Assembly: GCF_003003075.1 (NCBI RefSeq)
Contig: NZ_PVTX01000001.1
Coordinates: forward strand, 248,001 to 312,000
Origin: Isoptericola halotolerans
Lineage (GTDB): Bacteria > Actinomycetota > Actinomycetes > Actinomycetales > Cellulomonadaceae
Direction of reading: 5' to 3'
DNA: 64,000 nt
The notes under the pieces are model-generated. The model was not told the DNA's origin. It made no database searches and saw only the letters and a list, made by a program, of their open reading frames with translations. Each line of letters opens with the position of its first letter. The stretch's first letter is position 1. The position numbers and the translations under genes were made by a program. Positions 18,216 to 55,152 of this stretch are shown piece after piece.

Positions 18216-20587
18216 ACCGCGTCAAGCAGAACCCCTGGGCGATCGTGCTGGTCGCGCTCCTGCCCGTCCTGGTGCTCGGCATCCTGCTGGCCGCCCTGTG
18301 GAACCCGATGGACCGGCTCGACACGGTGCCGGCCGCCATCGTCAACAACGACGAGCCCGTCGAGGTGGACGGCCAGACGGCGCCGCTCGGGCGCCAGCTC
18401 GCGGCCGGTCTGGTCGAGGGCGGCACCGACGACGCGGAAGGGTCCGACGTCAACTACGACTGGACGGTCACCGACGCCGAGCACGCCACCGAGGGGCTCG
18501 CCGACGGCACGTACGCGGCCGTGGTGACGATCCCGGAGGAGTTCTCCGCTGCGGCGACGTCGTTCGGCGGGGACGACGCCGCCGACGCGCGGCAGGCCAC
18601 CATCGACATCAGCACGCCGCCGGGCGGTCGGGTGGTCGACGACGCGCTGGCCAGGATCGTGGCCACGACCGCGACCACGGTGATGGGGTCCACGCTCACC
18701 GAGACCTATGTGGACAACGTCCTCATCGGGTTCGACCAGCTCTCCGACGGCATCGGCCAGGCCGCGGACGGCGCCGACCAGCTCGCCTCGGGCGCCGGGG
18801 ACGCGGCGGACGGTGCGGACGAGCTCTCCGACGGGGCCGGGCAGCTCTCCGACGGTGCCGCGCAGCTCGCGGACGGGGCGACCGACGCCTCCTCGGGTGC
18901 CTCGCAGCTCGCCGGTGGTGCCGGCGAGCTGGCCGGTGGTGCGGACCAGGCGGCGGCGGGCGCGTCCGAGCTCGCGGGCGGCGCCGGGCAGGTGGTCGCC
19001 GGCGCGACCGGGCTCTCGCAGGGGGCGTCCCAGCTGGCGGACGGCGCCGGGCAGGTGGCTGCCGGCGCGAAGGGGATCACGGGCGGGATCACCGAGAGTG
19101 CCCGCGGCGCCGACGACCTCGCCGACGGTGGCTACGCGTTGGCGGACGGTGCGGACCAGGTCGCCGACGGTGTGGGACGGCTCGCCGACCAGGTCGGCGC
19201 CGTGAACGACGACCTTCCCGGCACGGAGGAGATCGAGGCAGGGCTGGGCGAGGTCGAGGCAAGGCTCGAGGGCAGCAGCGCCACCGTGGAGACGGCGCTC
19301 GACGAGGCGTCGACCGCGCTCGGGTGCGACGGCGCCGAGGTGCCGGACCCGGCCGCCTGCGAGCGGGTCGCCGACGCGCAGGCTGCGCTCGCGGGCGCGT
19401 CCGAGGACTTCGTCGACGAGTTCAACGCGGCGTCGACGGCGATCGTGGACGCTCGCGGCCAGCTCACCGGGCTGGCTGAGGGCACCTCGCAGCTCGCGCA
19501 GGGCGCCGAGGAGGTCGCCGTGGGCACGCGGGGTATCGCGGACGGCAACGCCGAGCTGGCCGACGGGCTGGACGAGCTGGCCGACGGCAACCGCCAGGTG
19601 GCGGCGGGTGCCTCCGGCGTCGCCGACGGCGCCGACGAGCTCGCCACCGGCGCCGGGCAGCTCGCCACCGGAGCCTCCGGGATCTCGAGCGGTGCCTCGG
19701 GACTGGCCGACGGCGTCGGGCAGCTCGCCACCGGAGCCTCCGGGATCTCGAGCGGTGCCTCCGGCCTGGCCGACGGCGTCGGGCAGCTCGGGTCCGGGGC
19801 GTCCGAGCTCGCGACGGGTACCGACGGCCTCGCCGACGGCGCCTCCGGCCTGGCCGACGGCGTGGACCAGGTCGCCGGGGGCGCCGACGACCTCGCTGAC
19901 GGCCTCCAGCAGACGGCCGACGGCATCCCCACCTACAGCGACAGCGACCGGGAGAATCTGGCGTCGGTCGTGGCCGACCCGGTCGCGGCACCGGGTGTCG
20001 ACGACCTCACGACCGGGGCGACCGGACCGCTGTTCGCCGTCGTCGCGCTGTGGCTCGGAGCGCTGGGGCTGATGACGGTCCTCCCGCCCGTCGCGGCCCG
20101 CGCCCTCGGGTCGACGCGGTCCGCGCTGCGGCTCACGCTGGGCACGCTGGCCGTGCCCGCGGCCGTCGGTGCCGGGACGGGTGCCGCCGTCGGCGCCGTG
20201 CTCGCCGGGGTGGAGGGGCTCTCGCCGGTCGGGTGGGTCGGCACCATCCTGCTCGGGGCGCTGGTCTCGGTCAGCTTCGTGGCCGTCCACCTGGGGTTCC
20301 TCGCGTGGCTGGGGAACGTCGGCCGGGGGATCAGCCTGCTGATCGCGGTGCTGATGATCGGCACCGGCGTCGTGGCGACCGTGCCGGCCGTGCTCGTCTC
20401 GGTGGCCGACGCGCTGCCGACCGGGGCGGCGCGCGACGCGCTCGCTGCCGCGGTGGTGCCGGAGGTCGGCGGCCTCGGCGGGGCGGTGACCGCGGTGGTG
20501 CTGTGGGGTCTGGTGGGCCTCGGGCTCGGCGTCGGGGCGGCGGCCCGGGCGCGCCGCACCCGCGTCGCCACCCTGCTGCGGGCCTGA
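18212..20587 (+). CDS. YhgE/Pip family membrane protein with heptad repeats
   Basis: The product has 791 residues. One N-terminal transmembrane helix (about 8-30) is followed by a YhgE domain, then a long extracytoplasmic region (about 175-580) of 7-residue repeats of the type xxLAxGA (DGADQLASGAGDAADGADEL and so on; TIGR03057-like), broken by a segment with a Cys pair. Five to six C-terminal helices follow (about 605-790). The family includes the phage-infection protein Pip and ESX-associated YhgE proteins, and resembles ABC-2 permeases in its membrane part. It starts by ATGA overlap with the MMPL gene, so the two probably work as one exporter. A 63-bp tandem duplication lies inside the repeat region. 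Confidence 0.85.
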   Translation: MNRVKQNPWAIVLVALLPVLVLGILLAALWNPMDRLDTVPAAIVNNDEPVEVDGQTAPLGRQLAAGLVEGGTDDAEGSDVNYDWTVTDAEHATEGLADGTYAAVVTIPEEFSAAATSFGGDDAADARQATIDISTPPGGRVVDDALARIVATTATTVMGSTLTETYVDNVLIGFDQLSDGIGQAADGADQLASGAGDAADGADELSDGAGQLSDGAAQLADGATDASSGASQLAGGAGELAGGADQAAAGASELAGGAGQVVAGATGLSQGASQLADGAGQVAAGAKGITGGITESARGADDLADGGYALADGADQVADGVGRLADQVGAVNDDLPGTEEIEAGLGEVEARLEGSSATVETALDEASTALGCDGAEVPDPAACERVADAQAALAGASEDFVDEFNAASTAIVDARGQLTGLAEGTSQLAQGAEEVAVGTRGIADGNAELADGLDELADGNRQVAAGASGVADGADELATGAGQLATGASGISSGASGLADGVGQLATGASGISSGASGLADGVGQLGSGASELATGTDGLADGASGLADGVDQVAGGADDLADGLQQTADGIPTYSDSDRENLASVVADPVAAPGVDDLTTGATGPLFAVVALWLGALGLMTVLPPVAARALGSTRSALRLTLGTLAVPAAVGAGTGAAVGAVLAGVEGLSPVGWVGTILLGALVSVSFVAVHLGFLAWLGNVGRGISLLIAVLMIGTGVVATVPAVLVSVADALPTGAARDALAAAVVPEVGGLGGAVTAVVLWGLVGLGLGVGAAARARRTRVATLLRA
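19661..19786 (+). repeat. 63-bp tandem duplication inside the YhgE/Pip gene
   Basis: Two nearly identical 63-bp units (19661-19723 and 19724-19786) each encode three heptads around ATGASGISSGASGLADGVGQ. The near-identity at DNA level shows a recent in-frame duplication that changes the length of the extracytoplasmic rod. Confidence 0.8.
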
Positions 20588-51155: not shown

Positions 51156-51626
51156 ATGGGCGGCTTCGAGATCACCTCGTGTCCCCTGAGGAACCAGGTC
51201 GATCCGCGCGCCTTGCGGTTCGCCGCCGGCGCCACGGCCATCGTGCTCGCCGTCGTGCTGCTCACCGTCGGCGCCGCTCGGCCCCTCGCCCTCGGGCTGC
51301 TCGCGTCGCAGGTCGCCGTGTTCGGTTTCACCGCGTTCGTGAGCGTGCAGTGGTCCGTGTGGGCACAGCTCTTCGCGCGCGTCGTCTGGCCCCGGATCGG
51401 CGCGGCGACGCAACTGGTAGACGCTCGCTCGGCGCGCTTCGCCCAGCTCCTCGGTTTCGTGCTGACCGCCGTGGCACTGGTGGGATTCGTCCTCGGCGCC
51501 GACGGTCCGGCCAGCGCCCTGATCGTCGTCGTCGTGGCTGCGGCCGCCGTCGACGCCGCCACGGGCCGGTGCGCGGGGTGCGCCATCTACCGGCTGGCTC
51601 GCCGGAGGCGGTCGCACGCCGGGTGA
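51156..51626 (+). CDS. DUF4395 family membrane protein
   Basis: The 156-residue protein has four predicted helices: about 18-38, 42-65, 98-115 and 118-135. The middle loop PRIGAATQLVDARSARFAQLLGF and the C-terminal GRCAGCAIYRL with its CxxC pair are hallmarks of DUF4395. Members often sit beside thioredoxin- or rhodanese-like genes and may move sulfur or redox equivalents. No such neighbour is present here. AGGAGCGCC precedes the ATG at 51156. Confidence 0.82.
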   Translation: MGGFEITSCPLRNQVDPRALRFAAGATAIVLAVVLLTVGAARPLALGLLASQVAVFGFTAFVSVQWSVWAQLFARVVWPRIGAATQLVDARSARFAQLLGFVLTAVALVGFVLGADGPASALIVVVVAAAAVDAATGRCAGCAIYRLARRRRSHAG

Positions 51627-51657
51627 GGGCCCGTGCCCCCGCGGCGGGAGACGACGA

Positions 51658-51684
51658 AGGGCCCGGCCGTCCTGGCCGGGCCCT
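51658..51684. terminator. Hairpin: original terminator of the displaced tRNA-Gly
   Basis: GGGCCCGGCC (51659-51668) and GGCCGGGCCC (51674-51683) form a perfect stem with an extra A-T pair at its base. On the minus strand it is followed by TTCGTCGTC. It lies just past the tRNA-Gly 3'-end copy and probably terminated that tRNA before the element inserted. It may also end the DUF4395 transcript. Confidence 0.55.
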
Positions 51685-51694
51685 GCGTGCTGCG

Positions 51695-51740
51695 GAGCGG
51701 GTGACGGGAATCGAACCCGCGCTATCAGCTTGGGAAGCTG
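51695..51740. other. att repeat, distal copy (3' part of tRNA-Gly)
   Basis: The 46-bp sequence is identical to 55081-55126 and reproduces the 3' half of tRNA-Gly(CCC), from the anticodon loop to the acceptor end. It cannot fold as a complete tRNA because the 5' half is missing. It marks the far boundary of the integrated element. Confidence 0.9.
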
Positions 51741-51959
51741 CCACATGCAGTTGCGATTGGCGAGATAGCCAGCCTCCGAGGCCGTCTACCTGGGCCGATA
51801 GTACCCGTGGGAGCCGTTGCCTACCGCCAAGGACCAGCTCGTAGGGGCATGTCCAGGGCACGACGAGCGGCGGCGCGCCCCAAGAACCTCACCCGGGCAA
51901 CTAGCGGCAGCAGTGGGCACTTACAGATACGATTCGGGTACCATGCCGAAGGAGGACGG

Positions 51960-53684
51960 GTGCGCTCTGTAGTCAACTATGTGCACATCGAGAACTTCCG
52001 ATCCATTCGATCGCTAACAATGGACGGCCTCGATGGATACAATGCAATTGTGGGATTGAACAGTGCCGGGAAATCCAACATTCTCCGTGCGTTGAACCTG
52101 TTCTTTAACAACCATGTCGACGAGGGGCTTGAGCCGTTACGGTTCGGAACCGATTACAGCTCACATGCCCCCGTGGGGAAGAAGAAGCGCGTAGCGGTGA
52201 CTGTCGGACTGGCTCTCGGAGCATCTTTGAAGGTCCCAAAGCAACGAGATTTTGAGAGTAATCACGGAATCACGAACTCAATCGTCATTGAGCGCGTATG
52301 GAGCTTGGCGCAAGATACCCAGGCGAACCAGGAAACCTTCCGATTCGGGCCGACTCTCGAGAGCATGACCGATGCGACTGCCGACGACCTCTCCTCGATC
52401 CTGGCTTACATCCGGGCGGTTCGGTTTGTCTACATCCCGAACCATGCCAGGCCGGCGGATTTGATCCGGCAAGAACTCGAGCCACTTCGGGGCAGCCTCG
52501 TCGCGCGCCTACGAAGAACGAACGCATACCGAGATTCAAACGTTAATGACGTTCTTTCGGAGCTCGGGCGGCTGGGCGACCGGATGTTCGGCGGAGTCTC
52601 TGCGCAATTGCAGAAAGGGCTACCCGGGACCAGCATCTCCGCATCGTTGCCCGACGATTTTGCAGATCTGCTATTTGACGTGGGTCTCAGCGCAGTTTCC
52701 GGTGGGCAGTCTCGCGCGCCAGAGTACGAAGGGTCCGGGGCGCAGTCGTTCATGCTACTCCACATCCTCGACCTAGCGGACCGCACTCGAAGGTCGGGCG
52801 GGTTCGGTTGGGTGCAGGCGAGTGTTTGGGCAATGGAGGAGCCGGAGAGTTTTCTCCACGCTGGATTGCGTGCGCAATTCTCCGTTGACCTCGCAAAGTA
52901 TGCTTTGGATGACCGACGTCAGGTACTGGTAACGACACATCAGGCCGAGTTCCTTCGAGTCGCTGCGACTGCCTGGACAACCGACAAGCGCGCAGATGGC
53001 GACACGTACGCCACAAAGTCTTCCGCCAAGGAGGCCCTACGCTCCGCCACGCGACGCGAGATTACTAATTTCCAGCATCCGCTCTTCGTGTCCACCGATC
53101 GTCCAGTAGTTATCGTCGAAGGAAAGTTTGACGCGATCTACTTGAAGGCTGCAATTGAATCGCTTGATCTGCGGCCGCGATGGGTATTGCTTTCACCCCA
53201 GGAAGCGCTCGGCCAGGACGTCGGTGGAGATTCTGTGTTGCAGTACCTTCGATGGAACAAGTCGGTGATTGCCTCGCGGCCCGATATTGCTCCTGTTATT
53301 GTGCTTCGGGATTGGGAGGCCACTGATGCGAATAAGTATAACGATCAGTTAAGAGTCCATGCCTATTCTCGCGCTCTTACATGTGACGCGAGTTGCGTGA
53401 ATCCGGATCTTGATGATTCATGGTTCGGGATCGAGCGCTATCTCCCCACAGAGCACCTGAAATTGCATATTCCAAGCGGGAAGCTCGGTCTAGAGTCGGC
53501 GGCACCAGGTGCGCGCCTGTCCGTCAAGAAGAAGGTGCTTGAAGAGTATAAATCGGTCTTGGCGCGAGGGATCCGAGATGGCGGAGATCCCGGCGACTAC
53601 CTGCGCGAGTTGGTTCGATGGCTTGATGCGGAAGTTGAGGAGACCATCAGGAGTGTGCCGGTCCGCGATTTTGTCAACTCTTGA
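51960..53684 (+). CDS. OLD family ATP-dependent endonuclease (AAA + TOPRIM), candidate defence gene
   Basis: The product has 574 residues from GTG 51960 after AAGGAGGA; the frame is open further upstream but without family-like residues. The ABC-type ATPase has Walker A GLNSAGKS (32-39), Walker B VWAMEEPESFLH (Glu293-Glu294) and the H-loop VLVTTHQAEFL. The TOPRIM nuclease domain has PVVIVEGKFDAIYL (Glu387) and VLRDWEAT (Asp451, Glu453) as metal ligands. OLD proteins cut DNA and several give phage resistance. Class 2 members pair with a UvrD-like helicase (Gabija), which is absent, so this is a stand-alone class 1-type protein. It is the only cargo of the integrated element, and its codon usage is distinctly foreign. 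Confidence 0.88.
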   Translation: MRSVVNYVHIENFRSIRSLTMDGLDGYNAIVGLNSAGKSNILRALNLFFNNHVDEGLEPLRFGTDYSSHAPVGKKKRVAVTVGLALGASLKVPKQRDFESNHGITNSIVIERVWSLAQDTQANQETFRFGPTLESMTDATADDLSSILAYIRAVRFVYIPNHARPADLIRQELEPLRGSLVARLRRTNAYRDSNVNDVLSELGRLGDRMFGGVSAQLQKGLPGTSISASLPDDFADLLFDVGLSAVSGGQSRAPEYEGSGAQSFMLLHILDLADRTRRSGGFGWVQASVWAMEEPESFLHAGLRAQFSVDLAKYALDDRRQVLVTTHQAEFLRVAATAWTTDKRADGDTYATKSSAKEALRSATRREITNFQHPLFVSTDRPVVIVEGKFDAIYLKAAIESLDLRPRWVLLSPQEALGQDVGGDSVLQYLRWNKSVIASRPDIAPVIVLRDWEATDANKYNDQLRVHAYSRALTCDASCVNPDLDDSWFGIERYLPTEHLKLHIPSGKLGLESAAPGARLSVKKKVLEEYKSVLARGIRDGGDPGDYLRELVRWLDAEVEETIRSVPVRDFVNS

Positions 53685-53698
53685 GGGGGCACGGTGAT

Positions 53699-54946
53699 TT
53701 ACCGGTAGTTGAACCGTCCTGGCGTGGTGTGATGGATAAGCGTCGCCGCGTGGTGCCGAAGGTCGTGAAACCGCACGTGCGGCACACCGGCAGCCACGCG
53801 GGCCCGATCGAACATCTTCGTGCGTGCCCCGGCGCGCAGCGGTCGACCGGTCTCAGTCGCAAACACGAGCGCCCGCTGCTCCAGCGCGGTCCACTCGGCC
53901 AGATGAGTCACAAGGGCGACGGCGGTGGCATGTGGCAGGTGGACCGTCCTGCGCCCCGCGGACGACTTCGGCGGTCCCAGAGTCACTGGCTGTCCGCCGA
54001 TGTCGACCAGCGCCTGCTCCACCCGTACCGCAGCCCCGACGACGGCGCCGGAGGAGTCTCGTCGCACTTCGACGTGCCGTCGCTCCATCGCGAAGACCTC
54101 AGAGGCGCGCAGTCCGCCCCATGCGGCCACGAGCACGGCTGTTCGGTACTTCTGCGGCATGGCTGCGGCGATGCGGGCTACCTCGGCCGGAGTGGCCGGA
54201 ACACGTTCGGCAGCGTGAACCTGGCCAGCGCGGGGCACCTGGCAGGGGTTGTGGTCCAGCAGGCGCTCCCGGACGGCCCCGGAGCAGATCGTCCGCAGCA
54301 GCCGGTACGCCTGCGCCGCCTGGGTGCGTCCGGCGCCCGGTCCCGGAGGCTCACTGGACGGCTTCGGGCTGCCAGCGTCATGCCAGGCGTCCAGGACCTC
54401 CCAGCGCAAGCGCCCCGTCCGATGGGTATCCCATCCTGCCGCTGCGGCCCAGGTGCGAGCGGCCTGGGTGTCGGAGACCTTGGCGGTGCGGCTCGCCCTG
54501 GACGTAGCCGATTCGCGCGCGGCCACGGTGACCGCGGCGTACCAGTCGGTCACGAGCGTCACGGAAAGTGCTCGCAGTTCGGTGGCTCCGAGGTCCAATG
54601 TCATCGTCGGGTGTCCCGGCAGTGGCTGGGGTGTCACGATCCAGCGGGCCAGGAGCCGCTCGTACAGCGCCCGGGTCCGGGGTGCGAGCTGGTGCTGGCG
54701 GTCCAACCATCGACGGGCGTAGTCGGCCAGCGGCTCGGCGCCGAGTTCAGGTGCACGCCAGGTGCCCCGGTGGGACTTGGCGAGCTCGACGGCCAGCGCG
54801 CCCTCGGCGTCGGCTCGGCTGGGGTAGGTGCCGACTGTGCGGCGGACGTCGTCCGGACCGGTGTACCGAGCCTGCCACCGGCCCGAGGGCAAGCGGCGGA
54901 CGGAGCCGGTGGCTCGACGGGAGGAGTTGCGACGCTGGGTCGGCAT
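53699..54946 (-). pseudogene. Tyrosine recombinase/integrase, C-terminally truncated
   Basis: The frame encodes 415 residues from ATG 54946. An arm-binding N-terminus (GSVRRLPSGRWQARYTGPDD) and SAM-like core-binding domain (about 80-240) precede the catalytic domain. It has Arg in AWGGLRASEVF, Lys in PPKSSAGRRTV and the HDLRHHAATL motif. The frame then ends after 15 unrelated residues (IHHTTPGRFNYR). The expected GH(x)n and nucleophilic Tyr, normally 35-45 residues further on, are missing; the next bases belong to the convergent nuclease gene. The protein should therefore lack strand-cleavage activity. The gene lies beside the tRNA target, as usual for integrases. Confidence 0.8.
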
Positions 54947-55080
54947 GGCGGTCACTCCGTGCGTTCCTGCCCTGGCGGCGGAGCCGCTGGGCACGTTGGG
55001 GCACGTAAGCAGGTTGCCCACGTGCTCCAGAGCGGCCCCAGTCGGGGGCGAAACTCACTCTGACCAGCACATTCACTGGA

Positions 55081-55126
55081 GAGCGGGTGACGGGAATCGA
55101 ACCCGCGCTATCAGCTTGGGAAGCTG
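55081..55126. other. att repeat, tRNA-proximal copy
   Basis: This 46-bp sequence is identical to 51695-51740. It covers the tRNA-Gly 3' half including the anticodon loop, the classical crossover region of tRNA-targeting tyrosine integrases. Confidence 0.9.
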
Positions 55127-55152
55127 AAGTTCTACCATTGAACTACACCCGC
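55082..55152 (-). tRNA. tRNA-Gly (CCC anticodon)
   Basis: The minus strand folds as a complete 71-nt cloverleaf: acceptor GCGGGTG/CACCCGC with discriminator T, D arm GTTC/GAAC, anticodon arm TCAGC-TTCCCAA-GCTGA giving anticodon CCC, and T arm GCGGG-TTCGATT-CCCGT. No CCA is encoded. The 3' half is also the integration site of the neighbouring element, which restored the gene on insertion. It lies upstream of and divergent from dcd, as in many Actinobacteria. Confidence 0.95.

Follow-up and report, generated by a model that had tools for sequence, protein, structure and literature searches.

Elements that keep both copies of their attachment site but have lost working integration and transfer genes are defined as cis-mobilizable elements (CIMEs; PMC5704250, partial text). 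Among OLD proteins, P2 old blocks lambda according to the note of its database record, inducing the expression of E. coli YbjD produces phage phenotypes for which its TOPRIM domain is dispensable (PMC13261556, partial text), and in Thermus scotoductus (Ts) OLD the metal ligands are E377, D381, D431, D433, S478 and E480 (PMC7049728, partial text). Here we analysed a 64,000-nt stretch of the Isoptericola halotolerans genome, referred to as the window, which contains a ~3.4 kb unit inserted at a tRNA-Gly(CCC) gene and carrying a tyrosine integrase gene and a gene for an OLD-like protein. An earlier note on this DNA had described a minimal integrative unit, yet its integrase lacks the catalytic end, and we consider it highly probable that the unit is the decayed, internally deleted remains of a larger integrative element, with a CIME-like layout, that has kept its OLD-like cargo. 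Insertion at the tRNA, truncation of the integrase and integrity of the cargo gene are each supported by the sequence.

Results

Positions 51695-51740 and 55081-55126 are identical over 46/46 bp, and no exact direct repeat in the window is longer. A chance origin was rejected, as the expectation for such a repeat in the window is ~3e-15. The right copy lies within an intact tRNA-Gly(CCC) gene called by tRNA scan (55081..55152, minus strand) and provides the tRNA-side attachment copy, and repeat comparison showed the far attachment-site copy (51695..51740, minus strand) to be identical to the 3' part of this tRNA. The scan called no tRNA at the left copy, and a second whole tRNA gene at this position was therefore also rejected. 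The perfect repeats, their coordinates and the tRNA-Gly(CCC) site had all been given correctly in the earlier note.

Just outside the far repeat is a 15-pair hairpin (51654..51688) which, on comparison with genus relatives, appears to be the terminator-like hairpin that belongs to the tRNA-Gly gene, now in a displaced position, and beside the intact tRNA only 8 pairs form; both features are predicted by insertion into the tRNA 3' end. Our genus sample comprised 18 genomes including that of the window, all of which were matched by a tRNA-dcd query (18/18), and when the 17 relatives were searched for the empty junction, 15 showed a 10- to 19-pair hairpin no more than 70 bases from the 3' end of the tRNA. 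The two relatives without this junction are G004 and G012. In G004, which carries an 8.5-kb element of its own at this tRNA, a near-full second repeat copy lies close by (1/17). One of the 15 genomes with the junction, G007, also contains part of the tRNA-Gly end as an additional 39-bp copy (1/17). No other relative showed a second copy near the tRNA, the outcome that would have contradicted the earlier note (both copies kept by relatives without the element) was not seen, and insertion at tRNA-Gly(CCC) is well supported by these comparisons.

Some further observations were made at these sites. The bare tRNA-Gly(CCC) of the near relative G012 (L067) could perhaps have come from a deletion or be an old insertion scar. 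In G007 (L065:7339-8620), the partial copy adjoins a GNAT gene and lies beyond the hairpin as viewed from the intact tRNA, at a distance of ~1.3 kb and with unrelated DNA in the interval.

The integrase gene (53699..55021, minus strand; 440 aa) encodes a protein that is truncated at its C-terminus, as judged by Pfam and homologue alignment. The Pfam Phage_integrase profile matches only to position 138 of 172, and after HDLRHHAATL the protein departs from its family, reads into IHHTTPGRFNYR and then stops, with 13 residues remaining after residue 427 compared with 50 to 68 in 22 aligned homologues. The missing stretch in these homologues includes the His of what we take to be box III and the catalytic Tyr, both of which are absent from the window integrase after the presumed box II. 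Reading the other frames by eye revealed no missing C-terminal part, and a frameshift hiding the integrase end was thus rejected. Likewise, when the tail was compared with a box III profile, 4389 of 20000 random peptides scored as high, and the possibility that it forms a real box III was rejected on this basis.

Matches to the integrase at E 1e-20 or better were found in 62 of 221 family genomes (own included), with no other such match in its own genome among the matches listed. We then considered the 29 loci listed best-first: box II, the GH of box III and the YxH of the catalytic Tyr are kept in 23 of these, one of which (L056) has an internal stop elsewhere, while of the six without the full set, two extend past the end of their locus and four are truncated or have a disrupted frame. 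It is therefore not unusual for integrases of this kind to decay. Given its truncated end and random-like tail, the window integrase is not expected to work, and self-mobility of the unit appears very unlikely.

Between the 46-bp repeats there are two open reading frames (ORFs) with family matches, which are convergent and 14 bases apart, and only 219 and 59 bases of the unit fall outside them. The earlier note had reported an integrase and a stand-alone OLD gene as the only content, which stands for the number of genes but not for the integrase being whole. The OLD-like gene (51960..53684, plus strand) is intact and encodes 574 aa from a GTG start, as assessed with Pfam, PADLOC and homologue alignment. 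We set the start at GTG 51960, behind an AGGAGG at ~51950 in the leader that runs from the far repeat to the gene (51741..51959), because a 72% homologue in another family genome (G096) aligns exactly from that residue; this homologue aligns with the window protein from first to last residue. A promoter scan gave one site, which lies inside the cargo gene and does not score above shuffles.

In the N-terminal part we assigned a presumed Walker A (32-39), EEPE (293-296) and H327 to an ABC ATPase domain. This domain is matched by Pfam AAA_15 (PF13175) at 2.6e-18, above the cut-off, the best PADLOC matches of the protein are Old (1.2e-19) and AriA (1.5e-18), and hhalign against phage OLD-like proteins gave 99.2% over residues 4-337. 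Assignment of the N-terminus as an OLD-type ABC ATPase domain is therefore solid by profile comparison, which bears out the ATPase part of the OLD ATPase/TOPRIM nuclease described earlier.

The TOPRIM part was not recovered by profile. Even with E as high as 5, PF20469 (OLD TOPRIM) matched neither the window protein nor the homologue in G096; the two controls were both recognised, P2 Old at 1.2e-17 and YbjD at 3.8e-16. The phage OLD-like protein L093 was likewise missed, which indicates that the reach of this profile is limited. A TOPRIM profile search with the C-terminal 209 residues, together with pairwise profiles, gave nothing firm; the EGKxD stretch weakly resembles retron Ec67 (E 0.3) and a Mollicutes protein (hhalign 86% over 35 columns), and shows no likeness to P2 Old or YbjD (hhalign 0.1-1.8%). 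An AlphaFold2 model built with six sequences had a mean predicted local distance difference test (pLDDT) score of 49 and was unusable.

We nevertheless found conserved motifs in the C-terminal domain, which we take to be EGKFD (387-391), RDWE (450-453) and GIERYL (490-495). Our searches recovered three full-length members, from the window, G096 (72%) and G1224 (42%), and EGKFD or EGRYD, RDWE and GIERYL are kept in all three. The counterparts of the Ts OLD metal ligands, placed by motif and not by structure, are E387, D391, D451, E453, G490 and E492, which are invariant in the three members and, relative to Ts OLD, have E in place of one D and G in place of S. Comparison of the window and G096 genes gave proportions of nonsynonymous and synonymous differences (pN and pS) of 0.193 and 0.772, respectively, the latter saturated, and the resulting pN/pS of 0.25 indicates that the protein is constrained. 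We regard nuclease activity as putative, and use the label OLD-like rather than full class 1 OLD member since the ATPase domain and the isolated gene agree with that class, while the TOPRIM domain is not settled by profile.

The G+C content of the cargo gene is 0.562, compared with 0.716 for the integrase gene and 0.729 for the window, and the two homologues are also poor in G+C relative to their surroundings (0.594 vs 0.715 and 0.540 vs 0.687). No match to the gene was found in the 17 genus relatives, one (G096) in 220 other family genomes (E 1e-10), and none in 395 other genomes of an order draw or 395 of a phylum draw (E 1e-15); its C-terminal part was matched in one of 344 other genomes of a class draw (E 1e-4), with the caveat that these draws may overlap. 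Searches of phages found none, while plasmids gave seven remote records, mostly to the ATPase part, viral contigs gave five loci at 23-25%, and species genomes gave one remote match to residues 3-51. On composition and distribution the cargo is foreign and rare, as the earlier note had proposed from its A/T-rich codon use, and it does not behave as a conserved core gene.

The G096 homologue has ParA-type, HIRAN and 3'-5' exonuclease genes in its neighbourhood, and no helicase, reverse transcriptase or integrase was detected among ten scanned neighbours of the two homologues. In the window, no UvrD-like helicase was present downstream of the cargo among the neighbours read or scanned. In G1224 (L105:8608-11101), the OLD-like gene and a 135-aa ORF poor in third-position G+C are flanked by a ketoacyl-synthase gene and a tRNA-Leu, and may be another small foreign insert.

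The best 29 listed integrase homologues lie beside tRNA-Gly (CCC or TCC) in 28 cases and beside tRNA-Ala in one. We fetched 23 regions with related integrases and found a second copy of the tRNA end in 13, measuring 42-46 bp in 12 elements and 25 bp in one; ten regions had no second copy within the stretch, three of them on shortened stretches. The 13 delimited elements, 12 at tRNA-Gly and one at tRNA-Ala, span 5,082-17,820 bp. ORFs in these relatives were called with our own simple composition-based caller, and the proteins scanned from the elements and from the cargo neighbourhoods were hand-picked and not exhaustive. A two-gene unit of integrase and cargo was not found among the 13, the smallest (G176, 5.1 kb) having six called ORFs, and the recurring two-gene class suggested by the earlier note was thus not borne out (0/13). 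A limited search of the open-licence literature returned no paper on such an element, which does not show that none is in print.

An HTH_17 excisionase-type gene is present in G176, the only element tested for one. TrwC relaxase, a mark of mobilizable elements, was found in at least four of the 13 (G181, G032, G020 and G108) from nine picked proteins. For PADLOC, 15 proteins, mostly towards the far repeat, were scanned from 12 of the 13 elements, and three of these 12 gave a clear defence-type match: IetS and IetA in G032 (0 and 3e-145), a PD-T4-5-like protein in G212 (8e-13) and PDC-S01 in G108 (1.4e-60). A weak match to mad1 was obtained in G044 (3.4e-6). Some related elements carry defence cargo, and not all do. 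In G032, a single called ORF separates the IetAS genes from the far repeat, which is 1.5 kb away, and the two genes are oriented towards the integrase gene like the window cargo. This pair (L084:3222-6808) resides in a 17.8-kb tRNA-Gly element that also carries the TrwC relaxase.

Elsewhere in the window, a DUF4395 gene (51156-51626) adjoins the far repeat and may itself be a local acquisition; tblastn gave no match to it (E 1e-6) in the searched stretches of relatives. At 19610-19903 there is an array of 21- and 63-base repeats which, if coding, would give 7- and 21-residue repeats.

Discussion

In our preferred reading, a larger and probably mobilizable element would have used its own tyrosine integrase to insert at the 3' end of tRNA-Gly(CCC), restoring the tRNA and leaving the 46-bp copy at the far end, as the anatomy of the site and the unoccupied sites of relatives suggest. 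A later internal deletion, for which the relatives are our guide, would have run from inside the 3' end of the integrase gene to just past the cargo gene, and would have removed the catalytic end of the integrase along with genes for excision, transfer and replication. Both attachment copies and the cargo would have survived, giving a cis-mobilizable layout that should not move independently, but that a related integrase, on arrival in the cell, could excise. The OLD-like protein is most likely a phage-defence effector that works on its own, with an ABC ATPase head that, by analogy with its family, may be gated by an infection signal and a TOPRIM-like C-terminal domain that may cut nucleic acid. 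We thus infer a larger ancestor, a deletion, immobility and a defence function.

Several observations weigh against this reading. An intact version, with the same integrase and the same cargo, was not found, and it is for this reason that the deletion is proposed on indirect grounds. Reading 19.9 and 18.0 kb around the two cargo homologues showed no stretch like the window integrase family, four of the 15 PADLOC-scanned proteins of related elements had clear matches with one weak and ten without any, and G012 has neither hairpin nor second repeat copy (one copy only). The PF20469 result and the unusable model add to these. Furthermore, random 70-base stretches of the window (n=400) form stems of at least 9 pairs in 37% and at least 11 pairs in 11% of cases. 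As stems are common in random stretches of this GC-rich window, a single stem carries little weight, and the constancy in place of the hairpin and its surrounding sequence weighs more.

The possibility that the unit is a functional two-gene integrative element, with an active short integrase that uses its terminal Tyr as nucleophile and moves the cargo, seems to us most improbable. Both 46-bp copies are still identical, and MAFFT can set the His and Tyr of the tail over box III when given a 15-residue gap; however, the segment that joins box II to box III is gone, as are all but one residue after the Tyr, the tail fits box III no better than random peptides do, and the full catalytic set is kept in 23 of the best 29 listed homologues. 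In addition, the 219 and 59 bases outside the ORFs leave no room for an excisionase gene. We consider it unlikely, though less so, that the cargo was never borne by the element and instead reached the relic afterwards, through illegitimate recombination that also cut the integrase gene. Here, ~50 bases separate the break in the integrase gene from the cargo gene end, and as neither cargo homologue is near a related integrase, the cargo could have arrived separately. The cargo nevertheless sits at the far-repeat end and points towards the integrase gene, like IetAS in the intact G032 element, and a repeat search, in which insertion sequences were not sought by profile, found no repeats at its ends besides the attachment copies.

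A role other than defence for the OLD-like protein, as an ATPase of DNA repair or the cell cycle or in maintenance of the element, is in our view similarly improbable. A cell-cycle role has been described for an archaeal ATPase of the OLD family (PMC12796447, partial text), and the nuclease domain of the cargo is not confirmed by PF20469; against this, the distribution of the gene is patchy (1/220 other family genomes) and it is poorer in G+C than its surroundings in all three genomes. Since some of the isolated OLD proteins that have been tested act on phage and the TOPRIM domain of YbjD is dispensable, defence would be possible even if the C-terminal domain were not a classical TOPRIM. Phage defence is the likely function of the cargo by these comparisons, which supports the suggestion of the earlier note.

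Returning to the decayed-element reading, pruning of larger mobile elements, rather than spread of two-gene elements, is a suggested route by which lone defence genes may come to lie by tRNAs. Our results also point to a tRNA-Gly element family with some defence-type genes, and to a rare OLD-like protein with a C-terminal domain that the present Pfam profile misses. More tentatively, and with somewhat more doubt than confidence, we propose that the unit is a pruned member of an undescribed actinobacterial family of integrative mobilizable tRNA-Gly elements with defence genes towards the far site, that hosts prune such elements to the defence gene so that stand-alone defence genes flanked by tRNA repeats may often be fossils of them, and that the cargo founds an OLD subfamily with an RDWE-type domain missed by the TOPRIM profile.

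When compared with known systems, the cargo has an ATPase domain similar to those of Gabija GajA and retron Eco8, and its EGKxD stretch recalls the retron Ec67 effector, but the neighbours that were read or scanned include neither a UvrD-like helicase, as in Gabija, nor a reverse transcriptase, as in retrons. It resembles class 1 OLD proteins (P2 Old, Ts OLD and YbjD) in being an isolated gene of similar length with an N-terminal ABC ATPase and a VEGK- or VEGE-type motif at the start of the TOPRIM region, and differs in having a C-terminal domain unmatched by PF20469. Relative to Ts OLD, RDWE (D-x-E) takes the place of D431 and D433, and G-I-E that of S478 and E480 (PMC7049728, partial text). 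The G004 and G176 elements (8.5 kb and 5.1 kb) share with the unit an integrase (60% and 59%, respectively), the tRNA-Gly(CCC) site and repeats of 44 and 42 bp, whereas they keep a full integrase end and more genes, and their genomes contain no match to the OLD-like cargo. Like a CIME, the unit keeps both attachment sites (46/46 bp) at a location unoccupied in relatives (15/17), and appears to have neither a working integrase nor room for other sizeable genes. It differs in apparently deriving from an actinobacterial tRNA-Gly element and not from a characterised integrative and conjugative or integrative and mobilizable element, yet its layout fits the CIME definition as far as sequence can test.

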